Origin: Candidatus Magasanikbacteria bacterium CG10_big_fil_rev_8_21_14_0_10_47_10
Lineage (GTDB): Bacteria > Patescibacteriota > Patescibacteriia > Magasanikbacterales > UBA922
Direction of reading: 5' to 3'
Length of the DNA: 47,347 bases
Assembly (NCBI GenBank): GCA_002773135.1
Contig: PFCB01000030.1
Span: 41,362-88,708 of the forward strand
Shown here: positions 26,490 through 42,167 of the stretch, piece after piece
Numbering within the stretch: the first letter of the stretch is position 1
Layout: each line of letters starts with the position of its first letter
Position numbers and translations under genes: made by a program
The notes under the pieces: generated by a model
Seen by the model: only the letters and a program-made list of their open reading frames with translations
What the model was told of the DNA's origin: nothing
Databases searched by the model: none

Positions 26490-26939
26490 TTAATTATTGT
26501 CCTGAGCAACAGGACAATGCTCAGGGTCATCAATACATTTTTTTAAATCACCGACAATCTCATCCAGCGTATGCTGCGCTTTTATATAAAATTTGTTTAC
26601 ACCCATGCTCAAATACGCAGAAATTTTATCATCGCTCACAGTATTTGATACCACCAGCACGGGAACATCAGCCCATTTACCGTTTTTCTTTTTGACCTGC
26701 TTGACAAAGTCCAACGCGTCTTCGTTCCCAAGCAAATAATGATCCACCCACATGGCATGAATATGTGGCAAACTCTTAACATAATCCAGCGCCTGTTCCA
26801 CCGATCGCGCTGTAATAACTTCATACCCACTTTTTTCAAGCTTGATACGGATGACATCTAACAATGGTTGTTCATCCTCTAACACGAGTATTACGGTGTC
26901 TTCAGAGGCTTTCTCTATCATTTTTTTCTTCGATATCAT
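26490..26939 (-). CDS. Single-domain response regulator, divergent
   Basis: 149 aa. Acidic cluster EDE (21-23), phospho-acceptor Asp66 in AMWVDHYLLG, and Lys in FYIKAQHT. The usual DxxMP after the acceptor is replaced by DHYLLG, and the C-terminal tail ends DPEHCPVAQDNN. It begins 3 nt after the histidine kinase stop. Two consecutive receivers after one kinase suggest a branched relay or a phosphate sink. Confidence 0.85.
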   Translation of the reverse strand: MISKKKMIEKASEDTVILVLEDEQPLLDVIRIKLEKSGYEVITARSVEQALDYVKSLPHIHAMWVDHYLLGNEDALDFVKQVKKKNGKWADVPVLVVSNTVSDDKISAYLSMGVNKFYIKAQHTLDEIVGDLKKCIDDPEHCPVAQDNN

Positions 26940-26942
26940 ATG

Positions 26943-28985
26943 TTATGTAAGTGATTTAGTTCCCTTTTTTTCTTTCATACCCGAAAGTGGTAACTCCACA
27001 AAAAATGTTGTCCCCTCATTTTCTACGGATTCAAACCATACTGTCCCACCGACATGATCGACAATTGATTTGACTATGTAGAGGCCAAGGCCCGTTCCTT
27101 CGGTATCCATTTTCACTACATTATCAGCCCGAAACAGCTTTGTAAAGATTTGATGCTGCTGACTTTCCGGAATGCCGTATCCGGAATCAGCTACCGTGAT
27201 CCTCACAACGCCCCCTTGTTCTTTTTTTCCTCGCTGGACAACTCCTATTTCTATACTTCCACCCTGGGACGAATATTTGATGGCATTGCTCAACAAATTT
27301 TCAACCACGATTCTAAGCAACTTTCCATCAAGCATCATGGGTATACCCTTTTCATTACCATTCACGGTAAGTTGTATATCTTTTTTCTTAGCCAAGACTA
27401 AGACATCGGAGACAACATCATTGACGAACTTTGAGATATCCTGAAGCTGCGGTGACACCATAAATGTTCCCATTTCTATGCGTGACACGTTCAAAAGCGC
27501 ATTTACCAGATCCACCATCCTATGATTCCCCGCGTATATTTCATTGAGATACTTGCGCTGAGGCTCGCTGATCTGGCCGGCATCGCCGGACAAAAGCATT
27601 TCCGTATACCAGTTAATGGTTGAAAGTGGTGTCCTAAGTTGATGTGATGCCAGAGACACAAACTCTGTTTTTGATTTATCGACTTCATACTCTTTGGCTA
27701 TGTCACGGAAAACGACAACACCGCCAACCGCCCTATCCCCTATTTTCATGACTGAGGCGGTCACACTGACCGGAATGATCTGCCCTCCCTTGTGGGTATA
27801 AAAATACCGTGTCTGCAGCGTTTCATTATCTTTAAAAACCTTCAATGTCAAAAATTGTTCTTCAGCAATGGGAATACCGTTTTCATCCGTCGGCTTCATT
27901 ATATTTGGCCATAGCTGGCCTGTGACTTCATCCGGACGATATCCGGTGATAGTACACGCCGAATTGTTTACAAGGCGGACCCTTCTTTGCATGTCTGTCA
28001 CCACCAGCCCTTCACCCAGAGATGAAAGAATTGCTTCATCTTTCGCTTTCTCTCCTTCGATTACATTTTTTTCTTCATTAAGATCCTCCAATAAATTCAG
28101 CATGGCCAGCTTCGTATCTTGCAATTTTTGATTCTTATCCTTCAGCCTCGCCAACGCTTCTGTTGTTTGCTTTGTTTTGTAAGCGACCTCTTTGGTTAAC
28201 GATGCGTACGATTCTCGCAGTTTATTTCGCATCACATCAAATGTTTGAGAGAGCAGACCTATTTCATCCTTTGCATAGACAGGAATGACAATATCAAACT
28301 CACCATGCGACAGCTTATCCGCGACGTCTGTTAACTCATGAAGAGGGCGCATGATACTTCGGCGCAGGGCGATCATGACAAATGAAAGAAGAACTAAGAC
28401 AACAGCAACAATTCCGGCCAAAAATTCAAGACTGCTTGAAAAAATAAAATCAATGTCCCGCTGTCTTTTTTCAATATCAACATACGTTATTTCCAATATT
28501 CTGTTTACCGCGGGAACAATTTGGTCGTCAATCATCCGAATACGCGCAACCAAATCCGCCGCTTGTCCATCACTATCACCGCCCTCCACAGCGACAATAA
28601 TTTGACGGGACAAGCCACTTCTATCGGATAGTAGCCCCACATATGTTTCAATTTGTTGAACAATAAGATCATTCCCCATCATCGATACAAGAACATTTGT
28701 GTTCGCGCTCACGCGTAAATCAGTCTGAGTGGCCAAACGCGAGTATTGGGGATCACCGGTAAGAACAAACCGGTCAATCGCAGATAGTGATTCATGCACA
28801 TCACGCGAAATCTCCGCGGCTGTTGCTTGTTCAGTTACATGCATTTCAATCTCGGCATTGATTTTTTGGATATCTTTGATTGAAAAATACGCGTAGAGTC
28901 CGAACAAAAGGATAATAACACTGACCAAACCAAAACCAAAAATAAGCTGCGATCGAACCGATATATTGTGTAATCGCGTCATCAT
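26943..28985 (-). CDS. Membrane histidine kinase (HAMP-PAS-HisKA-HATPase)
   Basis: 680 aa (M1 or M2). TM1 at about 15-35, an extracytoplasmic four-helix-bundle-like region (36-180), TM2 at 183-207, HAMP to about 260, coiled coil, PAS (about 318-430), HisKA with His448 in SLASHQLRTPLS, HATPase_c (about 548-665) with NLLSNAIKYS, ADSGYGIPES and GTGLGLYIVKSI. All catalytic boxes are intact. The start overlaps the stop of the sensor fusion gene, so both are made together. The fusion protein may present its ligand to this kinase. Confidence 0.93.
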   Translation of the reverse strand: MMTRLHNISVRSQLIFGFGLVSVIILLFGLYAYFSIKDIQKINAEIEMHVTEQATAAEISRDVHESLSAIDRFVLTGDPQYSRLATQTDLRVSANTNVLVSMMGNDLIVQQIETYVGLLSDRSGLSRQIIVAVEGGDSDGQAADLVARIRMIDDQIVPAVNRILEITYVDIEKRQRDIDFIFSSSLEFLAGIVAVVLVLLSFVMIALRRSIMRPLHELTDVADKLSHGEFDIVIPVYAKDEIGLLSQTFDVMRNKLRESYASLTKEVAYKTKQTTEALARLKDKNQKLQDTKLAMLNLLEDLNEEKNVIEGEKAKDEAILSSLGEGLVVTDMQRRVRLVNNSACTITGYRPDEVTGQLWPNIMKPTDENGIPIAEEQFLTLKVFKDNETLQTRYFYTHKGGQIIPVSVTASVMKIGDRAVGGVVVFRDIAKEYEVDKSKTEFVSLASHQLRTPLSTINWYTEMLLSGDAGQISEPQRKYLNEIYAGNHRMVDLVNALLNVSRIEMGTFMVSPQLQDISKFVNDVVSDVLVLAKKKDIQLTVNGNEKGIPMMLDGKLLRIVVENLLSNAIKYSSQGGSIEIGVVQRGKKEQGGVVRITVADSGYGIPESQQHQIFTKLFRADNVVKMDTEGTGLGLYIVKSIVDHVGGTVWFESVENEGTTFFVELPLSGMKEKKGTKSLT

Positions 28986-30880
28986 ATGTCAGACGATATG
29001 CCAAGCACATGGGCGGTATCCCAATTAAACACTTTTTTCACGCGCGCCGCGGTTTCTGTTTTTAACCAAGAAGGATGGCTCCCTCTTAAAATAAGAGCGG
29101 CCTTGTCACCGGCCAACGTGCCAACGTCAAAGGGATCATACCCCAACCCAACCAGTGCCCCGGCATCAACATCGTCCGGATTGCAGGCGATGGTCGGAAT
29201 CATTTCTTGTCGAGCCCATTCGATAATAAAATTTTTACCTTCTCTGCCAAACGATGTATCGCAGGAAAGGTAAAATACGTCCACGCCAGATCCATCTACC
29301 GTAATGTTTTCAATAAGCTGCGCGGTTTGAATTGCTGAAATATCCACCACGTCAAAACCTTTTTCTTTACTCAACTCAACCAGCTCCTTCAGCTGGAGAG
29401 ACACACCGGGGTCATTCTTTCCATGTATGTACCCTACGGTATGAAACCTTTTGCCCGTAGAAGATGAATTTTTAAACAGTGTCTCCAGCAAATAAAATTG
29501 ATCTTCCAACGGAACATAATCTCGGACACCCACCAGATTATTTTGAGAATGATCCAAAGAAGAAATCAAACCCAATTCAACGGGATACGTAACAGATGAA
29601 AAGACAACCGGAATATTGTCCGTGAGACCATGCGCCATGAGTGTCCCCTGTGTTGTAAGTGAATAAATAATATCCACTCGTTGATCTATGAATGCTTGAA
29701 TTGACCTCTCCTGCTCGGCAGGGTCTCCCATGGCATTGCGAAACACATAGTGAATCGTATCACCGTCTTTGTAGCCCGCGCGCGTCAGCGTATCCATAAA
29801 GCCCCGGATACTCTCTTCGTCATTTTTATTTTCATCCCAAAAAGATATGCCAACAACAACATCCGTTCCGTTTGGGCGCTTATATGAATATATCCGAACC
29901 AAAATAAATACAACAAACCCAAGAATGATCAACAAAGCGACCACTCCAAACACATTCCCATGCCGCGTGCGGCCTGATTGACTGCTTTCTACATGCGATG
30001 GTGCTACAGATGCGTCAGCGCTCTCCGGAGACTGCTTGTACAAGAAATAAATCCCGATCAACAGAAAGACAAACCCCAAAATAGCCATTGAGAGCGGAGC
30101 AACCGTGTGAACCAAAATGACCAATGCTTTTCTTTTTTTCGCATTCGTTACCTGTTTTTCAACACTCGCGTCCGTGTATGAATTACTGAATGAATTCCAA
30201 GGGGAAACCCGATCTCCGCTCGCACGATCATAGTAATATGCCGTGCTATGGTCAGCGAATTTCACCAGGTACCCGGTTATTGGTTCGACCCAAACCTCCA
30301 CATGCGGGTCCACTTCCACCCCGCGCTGTTCCGGAACACCGGGAAGATATTGCAACTCATTGCTCTGATCGATTCGGACATTCCTATAATCACTTTCGTA
30401 ACGAAAAACGCGCAAGCCAAACAACGATTCTTCTTTAAGAAAAATCATCCGTGCCGGCCCGTCATAATTCGTATGCCAATATGTGAATGTTTCTCCCTTT
30501 GATAACCCCCGAGGAGCAAATAAATACCCCTGCCGGTCTTTGTCTCCATACCCCGCCGTATGCGCTCCCGTCTTGGCGTTGACGCCGTATTCTCTTTCAA
30601 CGGAAAAAATAAAATCGTCCGTCAAATTTGTTACTGAAAAAGAATTATTGAGTGTATACGTATCACCGTCAATCGCTGTGACAGCATATCCATATTCTGA
30701 CTTCGATATTTGTGCCCCTACAAAATCTTGCGCGTCTTCATCATAAAAATTATCTAAAGAAAAAAGATCGGCTGAATATGAAAAATCGGCAGGCAATTTC
30801 GTTATTTCCGGTGCGATCAAAAATATCCATATGGGAATGAAACAAAAAAAGCTTGCTGCTAAAAAAAGATATTTCTTCAT
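28982..30880 (-). CDS. DUF3068 (PorA-like) domain fused to an ABC substrate-binding domain
   Basis: 632 aa. TM1 (1-25), an extracytoplasmic DUF3068/PorA-family region to about 248, TM2 (252-281), a short cytoplasmic Ser-rich linker, TM3 (310-332), then a type 1 periplasmic-binding domain of the ABC_sub_bind family (about 339-625, GISFWDENKNDEESIRGF, NIPVVFSSVTYP, IPTIACNPDDVDAGALVGLGYD). No ABC permease or ATPase gene is nearby, so the binding domain is probably a sensor. Between a PAS protein and a kinase, overlapping both by 4 nt. Domain calls are good; the ligand is unknown (relatives bind amino acids). Confidence 0.82.
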   Translation of the reverse strand: MKKYLFLAASFFCFIPIWIFLIAPEITKLPADFSYSADLFSLDNFYDEDAQDFVGAQISKSEYGYAVTAIDGDTYTLNNSFSVTNLTDDFIFSVEREYGVNAKTGAHTAGYGDKDRQGYLFAPRGLSKGETFTYWHTNYDGPARMIFLKEESLFGLRVFRYESDYRNVRIDQSNELQYLPGVPEQRGVEVDPHVEVWVEPITGYLVKFADHSTAYYYDRASGDRVSPWNSFSNSYTDASVEKQVTNAKKRKALVILVHTVAPLSMAILGFVFLLIGIYFLYKQSPESADASVAPSHVESSQSGRTRHGNVFGVVALLIILGFVVFILVRIYSYKRPNGTDVVVGISFWDENKNDEESIRGFMDTLTRAGYKDGDTIHYVFRNAMGDPAEQERSIQAFIDQRVDIIYSLTTQGTLMAHGLTDNIPVVFSSVTYPVELGLISSLDHSQNNLVGVRDYVPLEDQFYLLETLFKNSSSTGKRFHTVGYIHGKNDPGVSLQLKELVELSKEKGFDVVDISAIQTAQLIENITVDGSGVDVFYLSCDTSFGREGKNFIIEWARQEMIPTIACNPDDVDAGALVGLGYDPFDVGTLAGDKAALILRGSHPSWLKTETAARVKKVFNWDTAHVLGISSDI

Positions 30881-31842
30881 ACGACGGACAGTTCATCGAC
30901 AGGGCGAGTACTCGGTGTAACCGCCTCCAACTGTCGAATTTTTTCCTTTAACGCGCGCATTTTCAGCTCTCGACCAATCATTAGGCTATTCATTTTTTCC
31001 AACTCTTCCGTCTGGCGGCGCAGTGTTTCTTCAGTGAATTGAGCATCCGTCACATCATGCACAATACCGTATAGTCGGATGGGTTTACCATTCTCATCCG
31101 CCTCCACCTGCGTGATGCAATGAATAATACAATTCCGTCTCTGAGCCGTCACCATTCTTTCAAAAGAATTAAAGCCTTCTTTTGTTTGTAACGAATGCTC
31201 TACAAGCTCAAACATTTTTTGTCGAGTATCCGGATGAAAATAATGAATCCACGCCTCCATGGATACATCTATCGAGTCCGGCTCCAATTCGTAAATTTGG
31301 TACATTTCATCCGACCAATGAACAACATTCCGCTCAATATCCCATCCCCATGAACCGATACGAGCAACCTTCTGTGCTTCATCGAAGGCTCTCGTCTTAC
31401 TGATTAATTCTTGCTCCATTTCTTTTCTGTCCGTAATATCATGTCCTGTCACAATATACCCGTCAGGCACGCCCTGCGTATTGTGCGCGATGGTAGCCCG
31501 ACCCCAAATAAAAAGGTGCCCCCCATCCTTTCGAACAAACACCATCTCGCCGACATATCCTTGTTCAAAATCTTTTTCCAGTCGATCAAAAAGAAACGAT
31601 CGCGACTTTTCAAATTGCGATTTTGTCATCAGTGTTGGAACAATGGGTCTGCCAATAATCTGATCCACTTTCAGACCATGCATGTTCGCCCAAGCCAGGT
31701 TTACAAATCGTACTGTAAAATCTATGTTCAAAATCAAAATACAGGCAATAGTCGCTTGCAATGCCCGCTCCAAATGGTTTATTCTATCTTCAATCTCCGC
31801 GCAATTATGTGGCGGATTTTGTTTTTCACTCTCTGTCTGCAT
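30877..31842 (-). CDS. Dual-PAS protein without output domain
   Basis: 321 aa from ATG at 31842, which a -10 element makes nearly leaderless. A short coiled coil, PAS 1 (about 22-140, including GRPIVPTLM and PDGYIVTGHDITDRK), PAS 2 (about 150-272, IGSWGWDIERNVVHWSDEMYQ) of PAS_3 type, then a coiled coil (about 272-312) ending PVDELSVV. This is the arrangement that normally continues into a histidine kinase, but the gene stops. It may relay by binding the kinase two genes downstream, or be a split sensor. Confidence 0.85.
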   Translation of the reverse strand: MQTESEKQNPPHNCAEIEDRINHLERALQATIACILILNIDFTVRFVNLAWANMHGLKVDQIIGRPIVPTLMTKSQFEKSRSFLFDRLEKDFEQGYVGEMVFVRKDGGHLFIWGRATIAHNTQGVPDGYIVTGHDITDRKEMEQELISKTRAFDEAQKVARIGSWGWDIERNVVHWSDEMYQIYELEPDSIDVSMEAWIHYFHPDTRQKMFELVEHSLQTKEGFNSFERMVTAQRRNCIIHCITQVEADENGKPIRLYGIVHDVTDAQFTEETLRRQTEELEKMNSLMIGRELKMRALKEKIRQLEAVTPSTRPVDELSVV

Positions 31843-31849
31843 GCTGTAA

Positions 31850-31855
31850 AGTATA
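31850..31855 (-). promoter_or_regulatory. -10 element of the sensor operon
   Basis: TATACT on the minus strand, 7 nt before the ATG at 31842, directly after the pilus operon terminator. The -35 is only a T-rich stretch overlapping that terminator's U tract. Confidence 0.5.
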
Positions 31856-31872
31856 GCATGTTCAAGTAAAAC

Positions 31873-31900
31873 AAAAAACTGCACCGTGTGCAGTTTTTTT
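31873..31900 (-). terminator. Terminator of the pilus operon
   Basis: ACTGCAC (31878-31884), loop of 3, GTGCAGT (31888-31894), flanked by A and T runs, 22 nt past the pilin stop. Confidence 0.85.
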
Positions 31901-31922: not shown

Positions 31923-32429
31923 CTACCGCGTAACTCTCACCTGTGCGGCGTTCTCAGACTCGCAGGCTTGAATCACAATCGCTCCTGTTGAACTTGATAT
32001 GAGTGTATACCCTGTCGTTCCCGCAGACCATGTTACGGCGCCGGTAGGACTGACCGGTACTTCGGCCAAGTACCCTTCGGCAACAAGTCCTTGCAGATTC
32101 ACACAATTTCCATCCGCGGTAACCTGTGCGTCACACGACGCGTTGTCGTCATCGCACCCCGCGACATCACTTCCAATCATGTATATTTCTCCCGCAGTCA
32201 AAGCGGTAATAGCTGACAAATATGTCCCGCCATTATCAATCTGATCCACTTTCACGGCACTCAAAACAGCGGTGACATCCGTCCACCGCGCCGCGTCTCG
32301 CGCATCGCGAAAACGAGTAAGGGGGTCAAGGGCGACAAAAGCGACTGCCGCCAAAATCGCGATAATGGCAATGACGATAAGCAACTCAATAAGCGTAAAT
32401 CCTCCTCGTTTATGTTTTGTATCAAACAT
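31923..32429 (-). CDS. pilA: Type IV pilin (major pilin candidate)
   Basis: 168 aa. A short basic leader ends in KRGG, followed by the type III signal FTLIELLIVIAIIAILAAVAF: prepilin peptidase cuts after Gly and the mature protein starts with methylated Phe and has Glu5. The globular part has four cysteines (CDDDNASCDAQVTADGNC and one near the end), enough for two disulfides, which DsbB could help form. The last gene of the operon and the most canonical prepilin, so it may be the main subunit. Confidence 0.9.
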   Translation of the reverse strand: MFDTKHKRGGFTLIELLIVIAIIAILAAVAFVALDPLTRFRDARDAARWTDVTAVLSAVKVDQIDNGGTYLSAITALTAGEIYMIGSDVAGCDDDNASCDAQVTADGNCVNLQGLVAEGYLAEVPVSPTGAVTWSAGTTGYTLISSSTGAIVIQACESENAAQVRVTR

Positions 32430-32503: not shown

Positions 32504-33976
32504 TTATTGGAGACGATCAACAACAACGACCTGCAATGATGTTTGTTCAGCATTATATGATGTCTGATCTTCGGTTGTAGTTGGCAGCTCTTCACCGGGA
32601 ATATCAAGTACCGGCGGCAAAATAGGGCTTATCGGAGTCACCGGTGGCTGCTCAATATTTGGAATCCTCTCCAAAAGCTGTTGAATCTGCGCGGCCTGTT
32701 CATCGCGGCCCTGCTGGCGCTGCGCATCCCTGTATGTGTATACGGAATCCATAAAAAAGGCTCCCAAAATAAATACAAGGAGAAGCGCAACCAACTCAAT
32801 ACCAAACTTGCTTTTATTCTTTCCATACGACGTATGCTTCATAAGCGCGCTTTGCAGCTTTCCCTGTTTGCGCGGCGCCGATGCTGGCTGAGACGTTTTT
32901 AACGGCTGATACTGACCGCGTTGAATGGTACTGGTTTTTTTTGGTGCTTTGGGATCAAACGGGACGAGTCCATTCGCGTCGAGAAATTCTATATGAGGAT
33001 CACTGCCATTTGGCAAGGCCAAACCGACTGCCTCAATAAACACACTACCCACATCAGCGCCCGGCACGAGAGGCGACGCCCCTAATCGTACAGGGACTCC
33101 CACTGTTTGGGACAATACGTCCAAAAGGCCTTGCTGCGCGCTGCCTCCTCCAACCAACATCATATCGGCCACGGCAATATTTTGCCGCGCTGTGGTCTCT
33201 TTTAATATCCGTACCAATCGGTCACCTAAGGCGGCCGCGACTTGCGTCATAGTGGGACTGCCGGAAATTTGCATCTGCGCCTTTTGCTGCTCTGCCGCGG
33301 CCATGTCTATGCCCTGCTCCGCGGCAATGGCTCCGGTAAACGTCGAGCCGGCGATATGTATGGTCTGAGAGCGAACAATACCGGTTTTATCAAAAACACC
33401 AACATGGGTTGTCCGGCTTCCAATGTCAACCACTGCCACAGGATTTTTGGGCATCCCGGAAAAAAGTGCCCGGGCCGTTGCTATCTGTTCGCTATCAAAT
33501 CGGTTCACTTTTATCCCCTGCTCGCGAAAAAAAAGCTGCCACGCGGCAATATACTTTTTGCTTGTTGCCAATACCCGAACCCTGACCGAGCCGTTTGCGC
33601 CGGGATATGTCTGAAATGAAAAATGAATGTCCTTTTGAGGGAGAGGTAATATTTTGGGTAATTGTTTTCGCAAAATATCATTCAGCTGTTTTTTTTGCTC
33701 CTCCGGAATGGAAAAAATATGAATATACACGTGTGACTCGGGAATGCCAAACGCAATCCCCTGCGAACGAAGCGGTATGCCCGCCTGCTGGTAAACCGCG
33801 CTAAGAGCCTGCGCCAATTTTGCGGCATCGACAATTTCTCCACGCTCCACAATGCCGGGAGCAATGCCAACACGCCCTTTTGCTTTTACCGTAAAACCGC
33901 GCCCTTTTTTATCCAAAGAAACTAGCTCTATGGTGCTATCGGAAATATCGAGCCCTATGTTGGTGTGTTCCATCAT
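32504..33976 (-). CDS. pilM: PilM with an extra C-terminal membrane segment
   Basis: 490 aa. Residues 1 to about 330 are an actin-like ATPase of the PilM family (NIGLDISDSTIELVSL, VAVVDIGSRTTHVGVFD, MMLVGGGSAQQG). A linker (KKTSTIQRGQYQPLKTS) leads to a membrane helix near 392-412 (GIELVALLLVFILGAFF) and a Pro-rich extracytoplasmic tail. Normal PilM is about 350 aa and soluble, recruited by PilN. No pilN or pilO gene is present in this operon, so the tail may replace PilN as the link across the membrane (inference). Confidence 0.88.
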   Translation of the reverse strand: MMEHTNIGLDISDSTIELVSLDKKGRGFTVKAKGRVGIAPGIVERGEIVDAAKLAQALSAVYQQAGIPLRSQGIAFGIPESHVYIHIFSIPEEQKKQLNDILRKQLPKILPLPQKDIHFSFQTYPGANGSVRVRVLATSKKYIAAWQLFFREQGIKVNRFDSEQIATARALFSGMPKNPVAVVDIGSRTTHVGVFDKTGIVRSQTIHIAGSTFTGAIAAEQGIDMAAAEQQKAQMQISGSPTMTQVAAALGDRLVRILKETTARQNIAVADMMLVGGGSAQQGLLDVLSQTVGVPVRLGASPLVPGADVGSVFIEAVGLALPNGSDPHIEFLDANGLVPFDPKAPKKTSTIQRGQYQPLKTSQPASAPRKQGKLQSALMKHTSYGKNKSKFGIELVALLLVFILGAFFMDSVYTYRDAQRQQGRDEQAAQIQQLLERIPNIEQPPVTPISPILPPVLDIPGEELPTTTEDQTSYNAEQTSLQVVVVDRLQ

Positions 33977-33979
33977 ACC

Positions 33980-34360
33980 TTATAAGTATTCCCAATCGGA
34001 AGCCGTCACGGTCGTACCACTTATCGACGCATCCACCCGAAGCACCTGCCTGACATTGCTGAGCGTGCTTGTCACGTACAATGTTCTCAACGCGCCGTTT
34101 GACGCTATGGACAGTATACAGGATCCGTCCCCCAGACTCAAAGTATCACCCGTGTATGCGCCCTCAAAACGCAAACGACGCAATCCTTCATCAGCGCACC
34201 CATCGGCTATGGCACGCGCCTCATACTGCAAATCCTGTGTAAATCCAATATCCAAATCGCCAATGCTTAAAAACGCGGCGCTCATTGCCAGTATAAGTGT
34301 GGCCGTCCCCACGACAATAACCACGAGTAAAAGTGATAATCCCTGTTTGTTCATATTCAT
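33980..34360 (-). CDS. PilX-like minor prepilin
   Basis: 126 aa. Leader MNMNKQG, then LSLLLVVIVVGTATLILA: Glu5 is absent, as in PilX/GspK-type minor pilins that cap or prime the fibre. The segment GDLDIGFTQDLQYEARAIADGCADEGL resembles PilX-family proteins (exported N-terminal helix with Glu/Ala-rich heptads). It overlaps the next upstream prepilin gene by 4 nt. Confidence 0.78.
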   Translation of the reverse strand: MNMNKQGLSLLLVVIVVGTATLILAMSAAFLSIGDLDIGFTQDLQYEARAIADGCADEGLRRLRFEGAYTGDTLSLGDGSCILSIASNGALRTLYVTSTLSNVRQVLRVDASISGTTVTASDWEYL

Positions 34361-34866
34361 AGGCGTGTGCTGGCGGTGGACGTTACCGATGTTTGATAAA
34401 AAAATTCAATACCGGTTGAGCTGGCGTACATAACATCCGCAACCATCCGAATGCTATCGGCGCCCGATACAGGACTCAAATTTGTAAAAATAAATTTGGT
34501 GATTGACAAGTCACTGTCGGTCACCGGCACAGCGGGATTTCCGCCCTCACTCACCTGCAACCGACCGTTATCTCCGGTCAATGAAAAGATAGTTGGATCT
34601 TTTGATGCGTCAAGCATTTGAAGCGAAAGCACGCCGGGATCCGTATCAAACGTTGACGCGCCGGTATTAACTGCAGTCGCCTGCTTTACCGCGTCCGTGA
34701 TCGTCAACACCGCCAATCGCATTTGAGCATTTACACTCTGTATGGCATAACTCTTATTCCTGGCGGTTGAAATATGCAAGGTAAACGTGACAAGGGCCGT
34801 GGCCACAATACTAAAAATAGCAATGTAAATGATACTTTCAAAAAGTGTAAAACCGCTTTTGTTCAT
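34357..34866 (-). CDS. PilW/GspJ-like minor prepilin
   Basis: 169 aa. Leader MNKSG, then FTLFESIIYIAIFSIVATAL with Glu5 retained. The C-terminal part is a beta-rich globular domain. Three nt after the giant prepilin stop and overlapping the PilX-like start. Probably part of the minor-pilin tip complex. Confidence 0.8.
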   Translation of the reverse strand: MNKSGFTLFESIIYIAIFSIVATALVTFTLHISTARNKSYAIQSVNAQMRLAVLTITDAVKQATAVNTGASTFDTDPGVLSLQMLDASKDPTIFSLTGDNGRLQVSEGGNPAVPVTDSDLSITKFIFTNLSPVSGADSIRMVADVMYASSTGIEFFYQTSVTSTASTRL

Positions 34867-34869
34867 ATG

Positions 34870-37800
34870 CTATCGGTAGTTAACCCGAATCTCAGAAAAT
34901 GTCGGCGTATTTGTCCCGTCGCCAATCAACTCCAATCTATATTGAGCCCACCGGTTGCCATTGAGCGAAGTGGACACAAGCGATCCGGTATTGTCGGTAA
35001 AATAGGTTGCCGCGCCACTCTCTCCATACCACGCCGTCCATGCACCCGGGCTTCCGCCACTATCAGGGGCTGTCCGCAACTGAATTTTTGCCTCACATGT
35101 TGGTGTACACGCGGGGATACTTTGATCCCATTCAACCAACTGTACAGGCGACGCGTCTGACATATCAAACGCAGAACCGATGACCCAACCGCTCAGTGCG
35201 TACCCTCCGCCTCCACCCGATTCCCCATAATCAACACGGACATTATCAAGTCGCACAAACTGCGTCCCATCGCTCTGCAAAAACGATTTCAATACTATTT
35301 TTCCACTGCTGGTGGAAAAATCCCCGATATTAGTATCGACAATTGCTGCTGTGTTGTAGTTACTCGCTCCGGCAGCAGCCCACGAACTTCCGTTCCAATA
35401 TTGCCACGTCGCCCCCTCATCATCGGAAAGTTGGTAATACACTTCCCCGCCATTTTTAATGGCTGTTTCAGTAAAACCTGTCCACTGTTCAGGACTTGCA
35501 AGCGACAGTGATGTAGAGGCTGTCACCGGTGGCACGTCGGTTGGATAGCTGCTTGACGATTCAAGCTCAATAGTGGTCACAAAACCGTCTGATCCGGTAC
35601 TTTGATACGCGATGGCATATGTATCCGCGGCAGCAAGCTCCACAATGCTGGGATAATAGGCATCTGCCGTATCAAACTCCAGTGTATCAAGTACCGCGGC
35701 GCCAATTTGCCCATTGGTGGCGATATCTATCATAGTGATGAATCCATCACCGGCAACACCGGAATACGCAATAAAATAATAATCTCCGGTCGCGTACAAC
35801 AAATCAGGATAACTGGCGTCATTGGTATCAAATTCAAACGTGTCCACGGTGCTACCACCGATATTACCGCTTGAGTCAATGGTCATTGTCGCGAGCCAGC
35901 CATCACCGTTCGCACCCTGATACGCGACAGCATAATAGTCCCCGGACACATGTTCCAGATCCGGCCGAAAGCCGTCACTTGGATCAAATTCAAAACTGTC
36001 GACAGTGCCGGCGCCAATATTCCCGCTTGAATCAATCGTCACTGTCGCCACCCAACCATCATTCCCAGGCCCTCTGTACGCGATCGCATAGTAATCACCG
36101 GACACATGAACCATGCTTGGTTCCCTACCATTATTGTTATCCCACTCGAGTGTATCCACCGTACCCGCACCAATATTGCCGCTTGAATCAATCGTCACTG
36201 TTGCAAGCCAGCCATCAGTCCCAGGACCCTGATATGCGATTGCATAGACATCACCACTGACGTGGACGACGCTGGGCACGTCACCGTTTCCAGTATCATA
36301 CTCCAAAGAGTCAACAACAGAATTCCCAATATTGCCGGATGAATCAATCGTCATAGTTGCAAGCCAGCCATCAGTCCCAGGACCGGCATACGCTATGCCA
36401 TAGACGTCCCCACTCACATGAAAAATATATGGTTCCCCACCTTGACTTGTGTCAAATTCAAGTGTATCGATGACACTGGCAACAATGGTACCGGCTATGT
36501 CAATATCAACGGTTGCAAGCCAGCCATCGCTTCCAGGTCCTTGGTACGCAATAGCGTAAATATCACCACTCACATGAATCATGTGCGTTTCCGCTCCGTT
36601 GCTCGTATCAAATTCAAATGAATCAATTACTGCGTCGGCAATGCCGGACAGTGAAGCAGCGCCCGCCTTAAGTTGCGCGTAGCCGCCCGTGACTTCAATT
36701 TTAGCTGAATCAAACTGATAGTCTCCGGAATTGGAAAACGTCCAATCGTATGACTGTTCACAACTAATGGTCACATTGTCCAGCTGTACAAACTGCGCAC
36801 TGTCGCTTTCCAAAAATGCTTTGAACATGATAGCCCCCGTACTTGTTGAAAATGTTTGAATATTAGTATTAATCACGCTACTGATATTGTAATCTGTGGC
36901 ACCCACCGCGCTGGCCCACGCGGCTCCGGTCCAATACTGCCATGTGGAGCCAGCGTCTTCTGACAGTTGGTAGTATATTTCCCCTCCATCTTTTGACGCG
37001 GTCTCGGCAAACGCGGACCATGTATCAATTGCCGGCACGCTAAAGGACGCGGTTGGATTGATTGAAGGAGTATCCGAAGGGTATGTTGATGCTGTTTCCA
37101 GATCAATAGTTATCACAAATCCATCCCCCGCAACCCCTTCATACGAAATGGCATAGATGTCACCGGCGACTATTTCTACCATGGTTGGATTCGTACCATC
37201 GGATGTATCGAACTCCAAGATATCAATGGCCGATGCCGCTATATTCCCGTCTGTTTGAATGTCAATCAGCTGGACAAATCCGTCACTCCCCGGCCCGTTG
37301 TACGCGACCAGATAGGCTGTCCCGGTAGCGTACAAGATACTCGGAGTAATTCCGCTACTGGTATCAAATTCCAAGCTATCTATGAGGCTATTTGTTATGT
37401 TGCCGGACGTATCAATCGTAACTGTCACCAGCCACCCATCCGCGCCCGGCCCGTCATAGGCTATGGCATACACGTCACCGCTCACGTGCTGCAACTCCGG
37501 CCGGTTCGCATCATTCGTATCAAATTCAAAGGTATCAATGGTTGACGCTGTGATAGCCCCCGATGCATTAATGGACACTGTTGCCAACCACCCGTCTCCC
37601 CCGGAGCCGTTGTAGGCAATGGCATATACATCACCGGATATATGAACAATATCCGGTCCCTGCCCGCTGTCTGTATCGTATTCAAAACTGTCAACGACGC
37701 TATTTGCGATATTACCGGCTGAATCAATATCCACGGTCGCCAGCCAGCCGTCTCCTGCCGGGCCCTGGTATACGATTGCATAAATATCGCCGGCAATGGC

Positions 37801-38907
37801 AATGACGTTCGGTGTTTCTCCATTGGATGTATCATACTCAAGGCTGTCAATAACAGAAGCTCCAATATTGCCTGACGAGTCAATGGTCATCGTCACCAGC
37901 CACCCGTCAACACCCGGACCGTTATACGCGATACCATACACGTCCCCGCTCACATGAAAAATATCAGGCGTATCTGCGTCGGTCGCGTCAAATTCAAGTG
38001 TATCAATCACACTGGCTGTAATCGTCCCCGCTGAATCGATATCAACCGTCGCAAGCCACCCATCTCCATTGTCACCTCTGTACGCTATAGCATAGATATC
38101 GCCGGACACATGAATAATATCAGGTTCGTGACCGTCAACCGTGTCAAATTCAAAACTGCTCAAGACAGCATCAGCAATACCGGACAGCGCTGGTGCACTT
38201 CCCTTCAGCTGCGCATTCCCCCCTGTCACTTCAATTTTCCCGCTGTCATACGAATACTGACCCGGTGTTGTAAATTCCCAAATATTTGTACCACACCCGC
38301 CCCCTGCAGAAGCCAGCGTTACCTCTCCGGCAACTGACACATTCACATTGCTATCATCACTATCATACTTTGTCGCGTCCGACCACAATGACTGACCAGC
38401 CCCTCCCACCCAATCAGTCTGCGTCCAATCGGAACTGTCCCAGTTACTGACATACGCCACTCGCTCCACTGTTGAAGTGACACCAGGTCTTGGCTGCCAC
38501 TCCACCAGAACGCTGGCAAGTTTCAAATGCTCATCTGTGTACGTTCCCGGACAGGTAACAATATCACTGCTTCCGTCTCTGCACACATCCTCAAAGGTAA
38601 TTGTCCGCACATAGTCACCAATAGTCTCTGTTGTATTTTCTCCATCAAAAATCCATTGTGCCCCACTCACTGACACGGAACTGGTTGAATATGTGAATTC
38701 GTTATATGCTCTGTCTCTGATGGATCGCACGGCTTCCAGTCCTTCCTCTGCCAGCGAGGTTGCCTGTACGTAGTGGGTGCTCTGAACATCCGCCCTTCCA
38801 TTTCCTGCAGACAAGCTTAAAATACTTGCCGCCAAAATAGCAAAAACGGCAATGCCCAACATTGCCTCCAAAAGTGATAGCCCTCTTTTATCTGTCGTAA
38901 TTCGCAT
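34870..38907 (-). CDS. Giant prepilin with two seven-repeat beta-propeller-like blocks
   Basis: 1345 aa. A type III signal (RITTDKRG, then LSLLEAMLGIAVFAILAASI with Glu5) marks it as a pilin-like protein. Residues 246-608 contain seven repeats of about 52 aa and residues 758-1120 seven more. Each repeat has the pattern (I/V)DxxE(F/Y)D, HVSGD(V/I)YAIAY, DGWLATVTID, GNI. Each block is followed by a 110-aa beta domain (WQYW-containing), and the protein ends with a third beta domain. Seven four-stranded repeats per block fit a seven-bladed propeller. It probably sits at the pilus tip as an adhesin or binding protein. Typical minor pilins have 150-300 residues. Confidence 0.85.
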   Translation of the reverse strand: MRITTDKRGLSLLEAMLGIAVFAILAASILSLSAGNGRADVQSTHYVQATSLAEEGLEAVRSIRDRAYNEFTYSTSSVSVSGAQWIFDGENTTETIGDYVRTITFEDVCRDGSSDIVTCPGTYTDEHLKLASVLVEWQPRPGVTSTVERVAYVSNWDSSDWTQTDWVGGAGQSLWSDATKYDSDDSNVNVSVAGEVTLASAGGGCGTNIWEFTTPGQYSYDSGKIEVTGGNAQLKGSAPALSGIADAVLSSFEFDTVDGHEPDIIHVSGDIYAIAYRGDNGDGWLATVDIDSAGTITASVIDTLEFDATDADTPDIFHVSGDVYGIAYNGPGVDGWLVTMTIDSSGNIGASVIDSLEYDTSNGETPNVIAIAGDIYAIVYQGPAGDGWLATVDIDSAGNIANSVVDSFEYDTDSGQGPDIVHISGDVYAIAYNGSGGDGWLATVSINASGAITASTIDTFEFDTNDANRPELQHVSGDVYAIAYDGPGADGWLVTVTIDTSGNITNSLIDSLEFDTSSGITPSILYATGTAYLVAYNGPGSDGFVQLIDIQTDGNIAASAIDILEFDTSDGTNPTMVEIVAGDIYAISYEGVAGDGFVITIDLETASTYPSDTPSINPTASFSVPAIDTWSAFAETASKDGGEIYYQLSEDAGSTWQYWTGAAWASAVGATDYNISSVINTNIQTFSTSTGAIMFKAFLESDSAQFVQLDNVTISCEQSYDWTFSNSGDYQFDSAKIEVTGGYAQLKAGAASLSGIADAVIDSFEFDTSNGAETHMIHVSGDIYAIAYQGPGSDGWLATVDIDIAGTIVASVIDTLEFDTSQGGEPYIFHVSGDVYGIAYAGPGTDGWLATMTIDSSGNIGNSVVDSLEYDTGNGDVPSVVHVSGDVYAIAYQGPGTDGWLATVTIDSSGNIGAGTVDTLEWDNNNGREPSMVHVSGDYYAIAYRGPGNDGWVATVTIDSSGNIGAGTVDSFEFDPSDGFRPDLEHVSGDYYAVAYQGANGDGWLATMTIDSSGNIGGSTVDTFEFDTNDASYPDLLYATGDYYFIAYSGVAGDGFITMIDIATNGQIGAAVLDTLEFDTADAYYPSIVELAAADTYAIAYQSTGSDGFVTTIELESSSSYPTDVPPVTASTSLSLASPEQWTGFTETAIKNGGEVYYQLSDDEGATWQYWNGSSWAAAGASNYNTAAIVDTNIGDFSTSSGKIVLKSFLQSDGTQFVRLDNVRVDYGESGGGGGYALSGWVIGSAFDMSDASPVQLVEWDQSIPACTPTCEAKIQLRTAPDSGGSPGAWTAWYGESGAATYFTDNTGSLVSTSLNGNRWAQYRLELIGDGTNTPTFSEIRVNYR
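35548..36636 (-). repeat. Coding repeat block 2 (seven units)
   Basis: DNA encoding residues 758-1120 of the giant prepilin. Units of about 156 nt share strongly conserved third positions, so duplication is recent or gene conversion is active. Confidence 0.8.
37084..38172 (-). repeat. Coding repeat block 1 (seven units)
   Basis: DNA encoding residues 246-608 of the giant prepilin. The same 156-nt unit as block 2, including matching order (unit 1 of both blocks begins with DxFEFDT and unit 7 ends before a Ser/Thr-Pro linker), so the whole block was probably duplicated once. Confidence 0.8.
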
Positions 38908-38910
38908 TGT

Positions 38911-39393
38911 TTACTGCAATAATATTTTCCCGCTTGCGAGAACGTGAATGGTTGACTGAATATTGAGTGTTGGATGTGTAATGACGATATCGCTTGTGAC
39001 GCTTGGCAACCCGGACCCTTCGCTAAAATGATAGTCTGTGGCATCCGGACTCAACTGGACCGCCTGGTACGTGACTACTCTGTCATATTGCGTTTCTCGC
39101 GCCGCATACGACCCGCCTTCATACAGCGTCACGCTATCGCTCTGCACATACACACCATGCGCGTCCAAGTTATACCGCGCGCTGGATCGTGTTTGCGCTG
39201 TCCGGAGTGCTTGCGCCACTTCTGCCGTCGCGTCACCAAGCTGTGCACGCGGCTGCAGCCGCGCAAAAATTGCCGCTCCGGCAGCGCTCATTATTGCGAT
39301 CATGGCAATAACAATAAGCAATTCAATTGTCGTGAGCCCGGATCGAGACGCATGCGTGCTATCTGTTTGCGCTAACGCTACCCGTAATTTCAT
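38911..39393 (-). CDS. FimT/GspH-like minor prepilin
   Basis: 160 aa from ATG at 39393 (MKLRVALAQTDS), overlapping pilC by 35 nt; a non-ATG start closer to the signal is possible. Processing site SRSG, then LTTIELLIVIAMIAIMSAAG with Glu5. The globular part follows the FimT/GspH pattern (RLQPRAQLGDATAEVAQALRTAQTRS). FimT-type pilins are minor tip subunits, in some species DNA-binding. Confidence 0.82.
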   Translation of the reverse strand: MKLRVALAQTDSTHASRSGLTTIELLIVIAMIAIMSAAGAAIFARLQPRAQLGDATAEVAQALRTAQTRSSARYNLDAHGVYVQSDSVTLYEGGSYAARETQYDRVVTYQAVQLSPDATDYHFSEGSGLPSVTSDIVITHPTLNIQSTIHVLASGKILLQ

Positions 39394-40462
39394 AAATTGG
39401 TGTAATAATGGCCAAACCAAGGGTGGTCACCACAACCCCTATCAAAAGGAGCAAAATAGGCTCAAGAGCCGTTGTCAGTGCGGTCGTTGAGGTATCAACT
39501 TCCTGTTCGTAAAAATCGGCCAAATACAGCAATGTTTCACTCAAATTGCCGGACTGCTCACCCACATTCACCATGTTAATAACGAGTTTGGGAAACAAAT
39601 GTTCAAATTGCTGCAAATTTTCAGCCATGCTTTTGCCACTTTGTATCTCAGACGCCACCTTTGCCAATGCGAGTCGATAATATCGGTTGGTAACGGTACC
39701 GCTGGTGATTTGTACCGCGTTATCAATATTCACACCACTGCCAAGCAGCGTCCCAAAGGTTAAACAAAAGCGAGCAAGATTTGAACTTTTTGAAATATGT
39801 TTCAACAGTGGAAACTTGAGCAATATTTTATGCGTGACCGGCTGTGAAAAAGTGGCTCTTGCCAACGCGACAACGCCCACCAAGATAGCCAACGAACCTG
39901 TTACAACAGCCAACCCATGCGCGCGCATCAAATCCGAAAACCACAGCACCATGCGAGTACTCAAAGGAAGCTCAATTCCTTTTAAACCCTTAAACAGCGG
40001 CGTAATTTGCGGTAAAATGTAATACGCCATGCCAAGCGCCAAAAAAAATGCGGCAATCAGCACAATGGCCGGATACGTCATGGCGCTCTTCACGCGTCGC
40101 ACCAATTGTTCTTCACGTTTGAGCTGATCCGCAATGTTTGTCAAATTCCCGGCGAGTGTTCCGGACGCTTCACCCGCTCGAACCACATCAGTAAATAAGC
40201 CGGGAAACACTTTGGGATATTTTGCCATTGCGTCCGCCAGCGATGATCCTTCTTCAATAGACCCGACAAGCTTTCCAATGACTTTTTTTAACTTCCCCTT
40301 TGCCGAGTCGGCCGCTATTTCAAGCGATTCGTGCACTGTCAGGCCGGCCTCGATCATAACGGACAAATGCTTGGCAAATACAGCCATGTCAACCACGGAC
40401 ACGCGGCCAAAACTGATTTCTTTTTTCCAAAACGGCAATTTTTTTGTTGTTTTTTCAGGCAT
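39359..40462 (-). CDS. pilC: Type IV pilus platform protein PilC
   Basis: 367 aa from ATG at 40462 (MPEKTTKKLPFW), 7 nt after the pilB stop; the frame extends 12 codons upstream into pilB, which is not favoured. Two GspF domains, each with FAKHLSVMIEAGL/ FCLTFGTLLGSGV type starts, and three membrane helices. It forms the inner-membrane platform turned by PilB. Confidence 0.92.
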   Translation of the reverse strand: MPEKTTKKLPFWKKEISFGRVSVVDMAVFAKHLSVMIEAGLTVHESLEIAADSAKGKLKKVIGKLVGSIEEGSSLADAMAKYPKVFPGLFTDVVRAGEASGTLAGNLTNIADQLKREEQLVRRVKSAMTYPAIVLIAAFFLALGMAYYILPQITPLFKGLKGIELPLSTRMVLWFSDLMRAHGLAVVTGSLAILVGVVALARATFSQPVTHKILLKFPLLKHISKSSNLARFCLTFGTLLGSGVNIDNAVQITSGTVTNRYYRLALAKVASEIQSGKSMAENLQQFEHLFPKLVINMVNVGEQSGNLSETLLYLADFYEQEVDTSTTALTTALEPILLLLIGVVVTTLGLAIITPIYEITGSVSANR

Positions 40463-40469
40463 ATTTTTA

Positions 40470-42167
40470 TTACATGGCAACGCGCAGTACTTCTTCAAGG
40501 GTCGTCACCCCATCGAGTACTTTGCGAATGCCATCTTCAAGCATGGTTGTCATACCTTTTTGTCTTGCCGCTGCTTTAATTGAGTCGGAGTCTGAATGAT
40601 TGACCACCAGCTGTCGCATTTGTTCATCCATGATCATGACTTCAAAAATACCGATCCGTCCGGCGTATCCCGTATCGCCACATACTTTGCAGCCATTCCC
40701 CTTATATAGCCGAAGATTATCAAGGGAAACCCCAATACGACTCAAAAACGCTTCACGCTCGCCATTATCCTGCAATATTTTCTTTTCCTGGTCAGTAATG
40801 ACATGACTTGCTTTGCACGACGCGCAAATCACCCGAACCAAGCGCTGCGCAATAATAATATTAACGGTTGACGCGACTAAAAATGGCTCAACCTGCATGT
40901 CGAGAAGCCGAGGCAGCGATGTTGGCGCGTCGTTTGTGTGCAATGTTGACAACACCAAGTGTCCGGTCAATGCCGAGTTAACACCAATTCCCGCTGTTTC
41001 TTCATCTCTGATTTCTCCCACCATGATGATATCCGGATCCTGCCGGACTATCGAGCGAAGCCCCTGCGCAAAAGTAAGGTTTGTTTTTGTATTCACCTGA
41101 ATCTGCGTCACCCCCGATATATCGTATTCAATAGGGTCTTCAATAGTGGCAATATTCACATCACGCTTGTTGAGCAACTTCATCACCGCATATAAGGTCG
41201 TTGTTTTCCCGCTTCCGGTCGGACCGGTCACCAATATCATGCCGTGAGGGTTCTTTATATTTTCTTTTACTTTTTCCAAATCATGGCCAACAAGACCCAA
41301 ATTCGTAAGAGTAAATTGACGGCCATGCGACGACAACAAACGCATCACGACATTTTCGCCATACTTGGTCGGAACCACAGAGACACGAACATCGATCGCT
41401 TCGCCCGCGTCACTGACAAAACGAAATTTTCCATCCTGCGCGGCACGGTGCTCATCCGTACGCATACGGGACAATACTTTAATGCGTGTCATAACACGCG
41501 AATGCATGTCCAAATCCATTTCTAGTCGATCACTCAATACGCCGTCAACACGAAACCGCACCAATGATTTTCGTTCATACGGTTCGATGTGAATATCAGA
41601 CGTTCCATTTCTTTCCGCGTTGTTCAAAATAAGGTTTGCCACATGCGCGGTCAAACCTTCCACCGCATCGTCTGCCTCAATATCCTCAGTCGTATCGTCG
41701 GAGATAGTGTCAAGCAAACTTTCGTACGCAGCTTTTATATCTTTTTTGTACCGTTTCAACGCGTACGCAATGTCCTGAACAAGCGTGATAAAGACCTGAA
41801 TAGATGTATCAAAACGTTTCTCCAGTACATCAATAATCTCGGTCTTTGTTGGGTCAACAATGGCTACCTGCACTGTCCCGTTCGCCTTGCCAAATGCCAC
41901 AATCTGTTGACTCACGGCCATGCTTTCAGGTATTTGAAAAAAAATATCATCATCTACTTTTTGTTTTTGCAGGTCAACATATTGATAACCAAAATACTCA
42001 CCTACAGCCTGACCCAAAAGCGCTTTTGTTAAAACATTATTATTAATAAGGGATTGCTGCAATGGAACATCATCTTGGGTTGCCAACTGCGCGGACTGAA
42101 GCATATCTTCTTGGGAAAGATACGCCTTTTCAATAAGTATCTTTTGTAACAACGCGTCATCAAGCAT
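40470..42167 (-). CDS. pilB: Pilus assembly ATPase PilB
   Basis: 565 aa. N-terminal MshEN-type domains (1-160), then the motor: Walker A TGPTGSGKTTTLYA, Asp box (MVGEIRDEETA), His box (GHLVLSTLHTND), and a zinc site with CASC and CKVC. All catalytic residues are present, so it is an active extension ATPase. No PilT retraction ATPase is seen in the window. 5 nt after the CheY-like gene. Confidence 0.94.
   Translation of the reverse strand: MLDDALLQKILIEKAYLSQEDMLQSAQLATQDDVPLQQSLINNNVLTKALLGQAVGEYFGYQYVDLQKQKVDDDIFFQIPESMAVSQQIVAFGKANGTVQVAIVDPTKTEIIDVLEKRFDTSIQVFITLVQDIAYALKRYKKDIKAAYESLLDTISDDTTEDIEADDAVEGLTAHVANLILNNAERNGTSDIHIEPYERKSLVRFRVDGVLSDRLEMDLDMHSRVMTRIKVLSRMRTDEHRAAQDGKFRFVSDAGEAIDVRVSVVPTKYGENVVMRLLSSHGRQFTLTNLGLVGHDLEKVKENIKNPHGMILVTGPTGSGKTTTLYAVMKLLNKRDVNIATIEDPIEYDISGVTQIQVNTKTNLTFAQGLRSIVRQDPDIIMVGEIRDEETAGIGVNSALTGHLVLSTLHTNDAPTSLPRLLDMQVEPFLVASTVNIIIAQRLVRVICASCKASHVITDQEKKILQDNGEREAFLSRIGVSLDNLRLYKGNGCKVCGDTGYAGRIGIFEVMIMDEQMRQLVVNHSDSDSIKAAARQKGMTTMLEDGIRKVLDGVTTLEEVLRVAM

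Follow-up and report, generated by a model that had tools for sequence, protein, structure and literature searches.

What does a pilin-type protein roughly eight times the length of its neighbours do in a type IV pilus operon? The question arises in Candidatus Magasanikbacteria bacterium CG10_big_fil_rev_8_21_14_0_10_47_10, from whose contig PFCB01000030.1 we analysed a stretch of 47,347 nucleotides (the window). There, a single intact open reading frame (ORF) at 34870-38907 on the minus strand, to which all window coordinates below refer, encodes 1345 residues amid a set of pilin genes. An earlier note, made from the DNA sequence alone, had described a pilin-like protein with two seven-bladed propeller-like blocks; its observation is confirmed and its interpretation partly supported. 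The protein is probably a modular minor pilin that shows two multivalent lectin-like adhesin heads, most plausibly at the pilus tip; its processing, filament incorporation, tip position, glycan ligand and part in host attachment are inferred.

A prepilin signal followed by fourteen repeats

The ORF begins with ATG, lies 3 bases from each neighbouring pilin gene and occurs once in the 1.04 Mb, 36-contig genome. Its product is about eight times as long as the 169-residue neighbours, where the earlier note had put the factor at roughly five. Its N-terminus is a class III (prepilin) leader of nine residues ending in glycine (MRITTDKRG; 38881-38907), followed by LSLLEAMLGIAVFAILAASIL. Cleavage is expected after Gly9, which places glutamate at +5 (MRITTDKRG/LSLLE, the slash marking the cut). 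The Gly-ended leader, the hydrophobic stretch and Glu5 are those of the class III signal of type IV pilins, as the earlier note had recognised. Pfam N_methyl covers residues 7-29 (E=0.0016; 18.4 bits, cut-off 21.2), and the genome encodes a prepilin peptidase at another locus.

The middle of the protein comprises two blocks of seven units of about 52 residues, which had also been read correctly. The units start at residues 253, 305, 357, 409, 461, 513 and 565 in block 1 and at 765, 817, 869, 921, 973, 1025 and 1077 in block 2, a spacing of exactly 52, with one extra residue in the final unit of each block. Positions E1, D3, Y20, Y24, D30 and G31 are invariant in all 14 units, and this regular 7 + 7 pattern is far beyond chance. 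The longer motifs HVSGDxYAIAY and DGWLATVTID, which had been attributed to every unit, do not extend that far; the last units of both blocks and the third unit of block 1 deviate most. Mean identity among the units within each block is 49-51%, with the same motif set in all seven. We dropped an assembly artefact or a recent repeat expansion as explanations, since the units differ and their DNA identity averages ~59%, with a maximum of 72%.

Two predicted propellers, each inside a beta-sandwich

We modelled residues 1-760 and 716-1345 separately with AlphaFold2, without templates, using alignments built from the window and fetched related loci. Each block was predicted as 28 strands (7 x 4) with a predicted local distance difference test score (pLDDT) of ~97. 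In block 1 these strands fall within residues 250-604, beginning with a lone strand (250-255) and ending with a three-strand blade in the last unit (572-604), a ring-closure pattern in which the N-terminal strand would complete the last blade. In a Foldseek search against the PDB, Photorhabdus PLL2 was the top match of both propeller models and PLL/PHL lectins filled the top places. The match to 6rgg_B had E=3.3e-12 for propeller 1 and 9.1e-13 for propeller 2, with template modelling (TM) scores by target of 0.74 and 0.72 at 12% and 16% identity. Sialidases, BT3686-type hydrolases and a PL25 lyase were also matched, ranking below the lectins in both searches. Judging by strand order and full-length matches to closed rings, both blocks are thus predicted to be closed seven-bladed propellers, one blade per unit. 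This agrees with the structural check set beforehand for residues 240-610 and 750-1120. The PLL/PHL matches support the propeller fold, and lectin activity would be a further step. Searches of PDB sequences for relatives of the protein returned nothing or chance-level matches. Pfam matches to DUF3471, NdhO and YhaM were discarded as sub-threshold noise on the repeats, and membership of the WD40 or RCC1 families was dropped in the absence of a Pfam match.

The remaining domains frame the propellers. The pilin module (38440-38880) is predicted as a long helix (residues 12-72) packed on an antiparallel sheet (78-154), the structural hallmark of type IV pilins. It is joined to the rest by a linker (residues 157-205; 38293-38439) that is mostly predicted disordered (pLDDT < 50). 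The earlier note had placed a beta domain after each block; it is in fact half of a beta-sandwich, and the other half lies ahead of the block. Comparison with relatives assigns the residues before the block (WxFxxxxxYxYDSxKIEVTGGxAQLK) and ~105 residues after it to the two halves of one sandwich. Sandwich 1 thus consists of residues 206-238 (38194-38292) and 609-717 (36757-37083) around propeller 1 (residues 245-606; 37090-38175), and sandwich 2 of residues 718-750 (36658-36756, from the slot mapping) and 1121-1227 (35227-35547) around propeller 2 (residues 757-1119; 35551-36639). A conserved beta domain closes the protein (residues 1231-1345; 34873-35217; pLDDT mostly 72-91). Blades of the two blocks share 62% identity when compared in register and 49% when compared out of it, which argues that a complete propeller was duplicated together with its sandwich and later diverged. 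The fusion of a pilin module to propellers and sandwiches, domains not specific to pilus biology, is that of a modular pilin, and the same propeller also occurs on non-pilin proteins.

The sandwich loop as a variable slot

Comparison with related loci (L numbers) revealed that the carrier is constant and the middle variable. The pilin module is 32-55% identical among relatives and the C-terminal domain 35-67%, the latter in proteins with different middles, in ORFs ranging from ~670 to 2000 residues. The loop that holds the propeller in both window sandwiches, in L022 and in the second copy of L021/L051 has only 7 residues in the first copy of L021/L051 and 31 in the first copy of L028, and is filled by ~180-240 residues of other sequence in L024, L025, L030 and L036-L040. 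A LamG domain takes the place of the sandwich in L063, L052 and, judged by sequence, L056, where a propeller of this family interrupts it; with the LamG halves joined, the Pfam score of L063 rose from 47.5 to 69.7 bits and that of L052 from 31.5 to 51.5 bits. Sequence comparison thus presents the propeller as a swappable payload on a conserved carrier. The payload is patchy: in a sample of 381 genomes of the class, a propeller match at E <= 1e-10 occurred in only 8.

A short cysteine motif, CSGTxTxCxT...C...GCSW, recurs in L028 (8786-10789) and L025 (9646-11745) in the slot that is filled by propellers in the window. A Dojkabacteria relative (L064, 7269-10628) has five blades only in the same slot, either a five-bladed ring or a repeat collapsed in assembly. 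The same split sandwich occurs in proteins of 1238-2902 residues with no match to the window's pilin module (L036, L037, L039, L040), with a response-regulator match just upstream of the gene in the first three.

The propeller family in Bacteria and Archaea

We scanned 84,980 species, each represented by one genome, using as query only the propeller and no pilin sequence. The scan recovered 44 loci in Patescibacteria, Desulfobacterales, Chloroflexi (Dehalococcoidia), Thermoplasmatota and a few others, including L051 (Candidatus Magasanikbacteria SI053_bin23) and L063 (Patescibacteria group bacterium). Blades were counted with an iterated blade profile in 46 non-truncated arrays, the window's two included; these sequences are related, not independent. 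Counts of 7, 14 or 21 blades were found in 39 of the 46 (23, 15 and 1 arrays, respectively), and closed seven-bladed rings demand just such multiples of seven, here seen in several phyla. The seven exceptions are an array of 4 blades (a broken ORF), one of 5 (L064), one of 12 and four of 6, which look like one archaeal orthologue.

Although the query held no pilin sequence, most of the recovered proteins begin as pilins. Among 46 intact N-termini, 24 match archaeal Pilin_N and 9 match N_methyl; by eye, 10 are of bacterial class III, which together with the Pilin_N matches gives 34/46 of pilin type. Three Chloroflexi proteins (L043, L046, L048) start with G/QAL, lack Glu5 and are encoded directly after two minor-pilin genes, a placement that fits a GspK-like tip subunit and would raise the figure to 37/46. 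About nine propeller proteins have no recognisable pilin N-terminus (e.g. L041, L044, L058, L061, L073). The association of propeller and pilin, seen from these N-termini, is therefore a recurrent one that spans different pilin classes, bacterial and archaeal. The archaeal cases represent fewer genomes than proteins, because tandem paralogues occur (L075, L076, L079, L080, L082). These are tandem pilin-type genes with 6 or ~14 blades of the same family, three genes each in L075, L076 and L080.

Sequence searches found neither a Pfam family nor a solved relative for the propeller. A scan of viral contigs with the whole protein yielded no relative, nor did the first propeller match anything in phage or plasmid collections. 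One tentative reading, which we rate somewhat below even, is that type IV pilins of both Bacteria and Archaea use this unnamed family as a specialised, mobile payload. The propeller would sit in the same loop in two or more unrelated host sandwiches (the split sandwich and LamG) on different pilin classes, as a swappable recognition head for cell-cell or surface contact common to epibiotic Patescibacteria and free-living microbes.

The pilus operon and its surroundings

The gene lies between minor-pilin genes, as had been noted, in an arrangement conserved in relatives. The minus-strand order is response regulator, PilB, PilC, GspH-like pilin, the modular pilin, a pilin with Glu5, a small pilin without it, PilM and a further pilin. 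The assembly ATPase PilB (T2SSE + MshEN; 40470-42167; Pfam E=3.7e-126) and the platform protein PilC (T2SSF; 39359-40498; E=1.3e-60) are followed by the GspH-like minor pilin directly upstream of the modular pilin (38911-39420). Beyond the modular pilin come a Glu5 pilin with a weak GspI/ComGF-like match (34357-34866) and a small pilin-like protein without Glu5 (QG/LSLLL; 33980-34360), as in GspK-type subunits; all three of these short pilins are syntenic in relatives. PilM (32504-33976; E=3.7e-24) and a candidate major pilin (31923-32429; N_methyl E=5.9e-10; 37-69% identity in relatives) complete the set. The order from PilB to this last pilin is kept in most of the same-family loci examined, often with a response regulator in front. 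The four consecutive minor-pilin genes suggest an H-I-J-K minor-pilin set. In type II secretion, the I-J-K minor pilins form a tip-like trimer (PMC4471445), and from gene order the modular pilin would belong to a complex of this kind.

Just downstream of the operon, a group of genes at 26490-31884 encodes a PAS protein, a WalK-like histidine kinase and a response regulator, together with a PorA/PgfA-like domain fused to an ABC substrate-binding domain (28982-30880); this is possibly a surface-signalling cluster. Two large ORFs farther along (20689-23577 and 17873-19915; 962 and 680 residues) have no Pfam match at E <= 1e-5.

A proposed adhesin pilin and the alternatives

The mechanism we propose is that prepilin peptidase cuts the N-terminal helix, which is then built into the filament, probably within the minor-pilin tip complex. 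The two beta-sandwiches, each with a closed propeller plugged into one loop, would hold two heads off the filament. A near-identical surface motif displayed seven times per propeller, as in multivalent propeller lectins, would engage a repeated ligand, probably a glycan, on a partner cell or surface, and many weak contacts would sum to firm attachment. By analogy, the strongest outside support for a binding role comes from TM7x PilX2 (PMC12206443) and Streptococcus sanguinis PilB (PMC8179133), both compared below.

Several points weigh against this proposal. The N_methyl score lies slightly below the Pfam cut-off. The likeness to lectins is one of fold only, at 9-17% identity and with no sequence match, and the two conserved Trp of the PLL hydrophobic sites are not reproduced, each unit having one F/Y/W position. 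Strand pairing at ring closure is deduced from strand order and fold matches. Finally, the minor pilins of Pseudomonas aeruginosa are reported along the filament and not at its tip (PMC4471445), which makes the tip position uncertain.

Were the propellers enzymes, such as a glycan lyase or a sialidase-like hydrolase, the pilus would carry a polymer-cutting tool and not a grip. Several of the fold matches are indeed propeller enzymes, and modular pilins with peptidase modules exist (PMC8179133). However, an active site needs asymmetry, while all seven blades here carry the same motif set at the mean identity given above. Such uniformity favours multivalent binding over catalysis, and with lectins ranked above enzymes in both fold searches we consider a catalytic role unlikely. 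Equally improbable, in our judgement, is that the large middle is a passive spacer or a matrix-like part that stiffens or sheathes the pilus and has no specific ligand. The middles vary greatly in relatives, as a spacer may, but the inserts are recognisable folded modules that typically bind ligands (propeller, LamG, pentraxin-like), and the seven-blade counts are kept, which a spacer need not do. The weak N_methyl match would also suit a protein whose N-terminal helix stays uncut, leaving it in the membrane as a surface-anchored adhesin and not a pilus subunit. This we regard as slightly less probable still, given the canonical Gly/Glu5 pattern, the predicted pilin fold, the constant gene position among pilins, PilB, PilC and PilM, and the prepilin peptidase in the genome.

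A pilin presenting two adhesin heads would be of interest because the means by which Patescibacteria locate and grip their hosts are poorly understood. In this conserved pilus operon, the one gene whose middle is exchanged from relative to relative is a direct candidate for setting specificity. As discrete domains, the payloads lend themselves to expression and to glycan-array assays. A general adhesin module is suggested by the broad distribution of this propeller over pilins of bacteria and archaea.

Comparison with known systems

The closest counterpart is PilX2 of Nanosynbacter lyticus TM7x, a Saccharibacteria minor pilin that bears a seven-bladed propeller of RCC1 repeats; in the deletion mutant, host binding fell from ~10.6% to 4.6% of host cells (PMC12206443). 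Both are Patescibacterial pilins with a seven-bladed propeller (C-terminal in PilX2), encoded alongside minor pilins in a pilus locus. PilX2 has a single propeller, built of RCC1 repeats, and lacks a predicted PilD signal (PMC12206443), whereas the window protein has two propellers, each inside a beta-sandwich, and a canonical prepilin signal; RCC1 is not among its Pfam matches.

Modular pilins, in which a small pilin module carries a larger functional module for display on the filament, are widespread, with listed examples from the Candidate Phyla Radiation (CPR; PMC8179133). In S. sanguinis PilB and PilC the payload is a vWA or a ConA-like lectin module, and the vWA module of PilB is an adhesin that binds host proteins (PMC8179133); here it is two propellers in split sandwiches. 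At 1345 residues, the window protein exceeds the 860 residues cited for the most extreme multi-domain modular pilin (PMC8179133). The tip adhesin PilC/PilY1 (PF05567) likewise presents a propeller with minor pilins but is not itself a pilin. PF05567 is not among the Pfam matches of the window protein, and a PilY1 search of the genome gave no match, a negative that carries no weight since the control genomes gave none either.

The Photorhabdus PLL/PHL proteins, the best fold match of both propellers, are seven-bladed lectins made multivalent by blade repetition (PMC12203525). The family binds fucosylated or O-methylated sugars. They differ in being free lectins, not pilins, and are 10-17% identical to the window propellers; neither the sequence homology nor the two conserved Trp per hydrophobic site that mark the family were found.

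In a literature search of incomplete coverage, we found no publication on propeller pilins in archaea, the 52-residue repeat, a double sandwich-inserted propeller pilin, the swappable slot or the propeller family; the "propeller" of a Thermoplasmatales paper is the archaellum. The earlier note had called the protein unusual. This needs qualifying, since a one-propeller pilin is known in Saccharibacteria, modular pilins are widespread and the same propeller family occurs on pilins in several phyla. Precedents thus exist for the modular pilin, the propeller pilin and the propeller lectin. What is new is the predicted double sandwich-inserted propeller in a canonical prepilin, its apparently swappable slot in a conserved operon, and an unnamed propeller family on bacterial and archaeal pilins.

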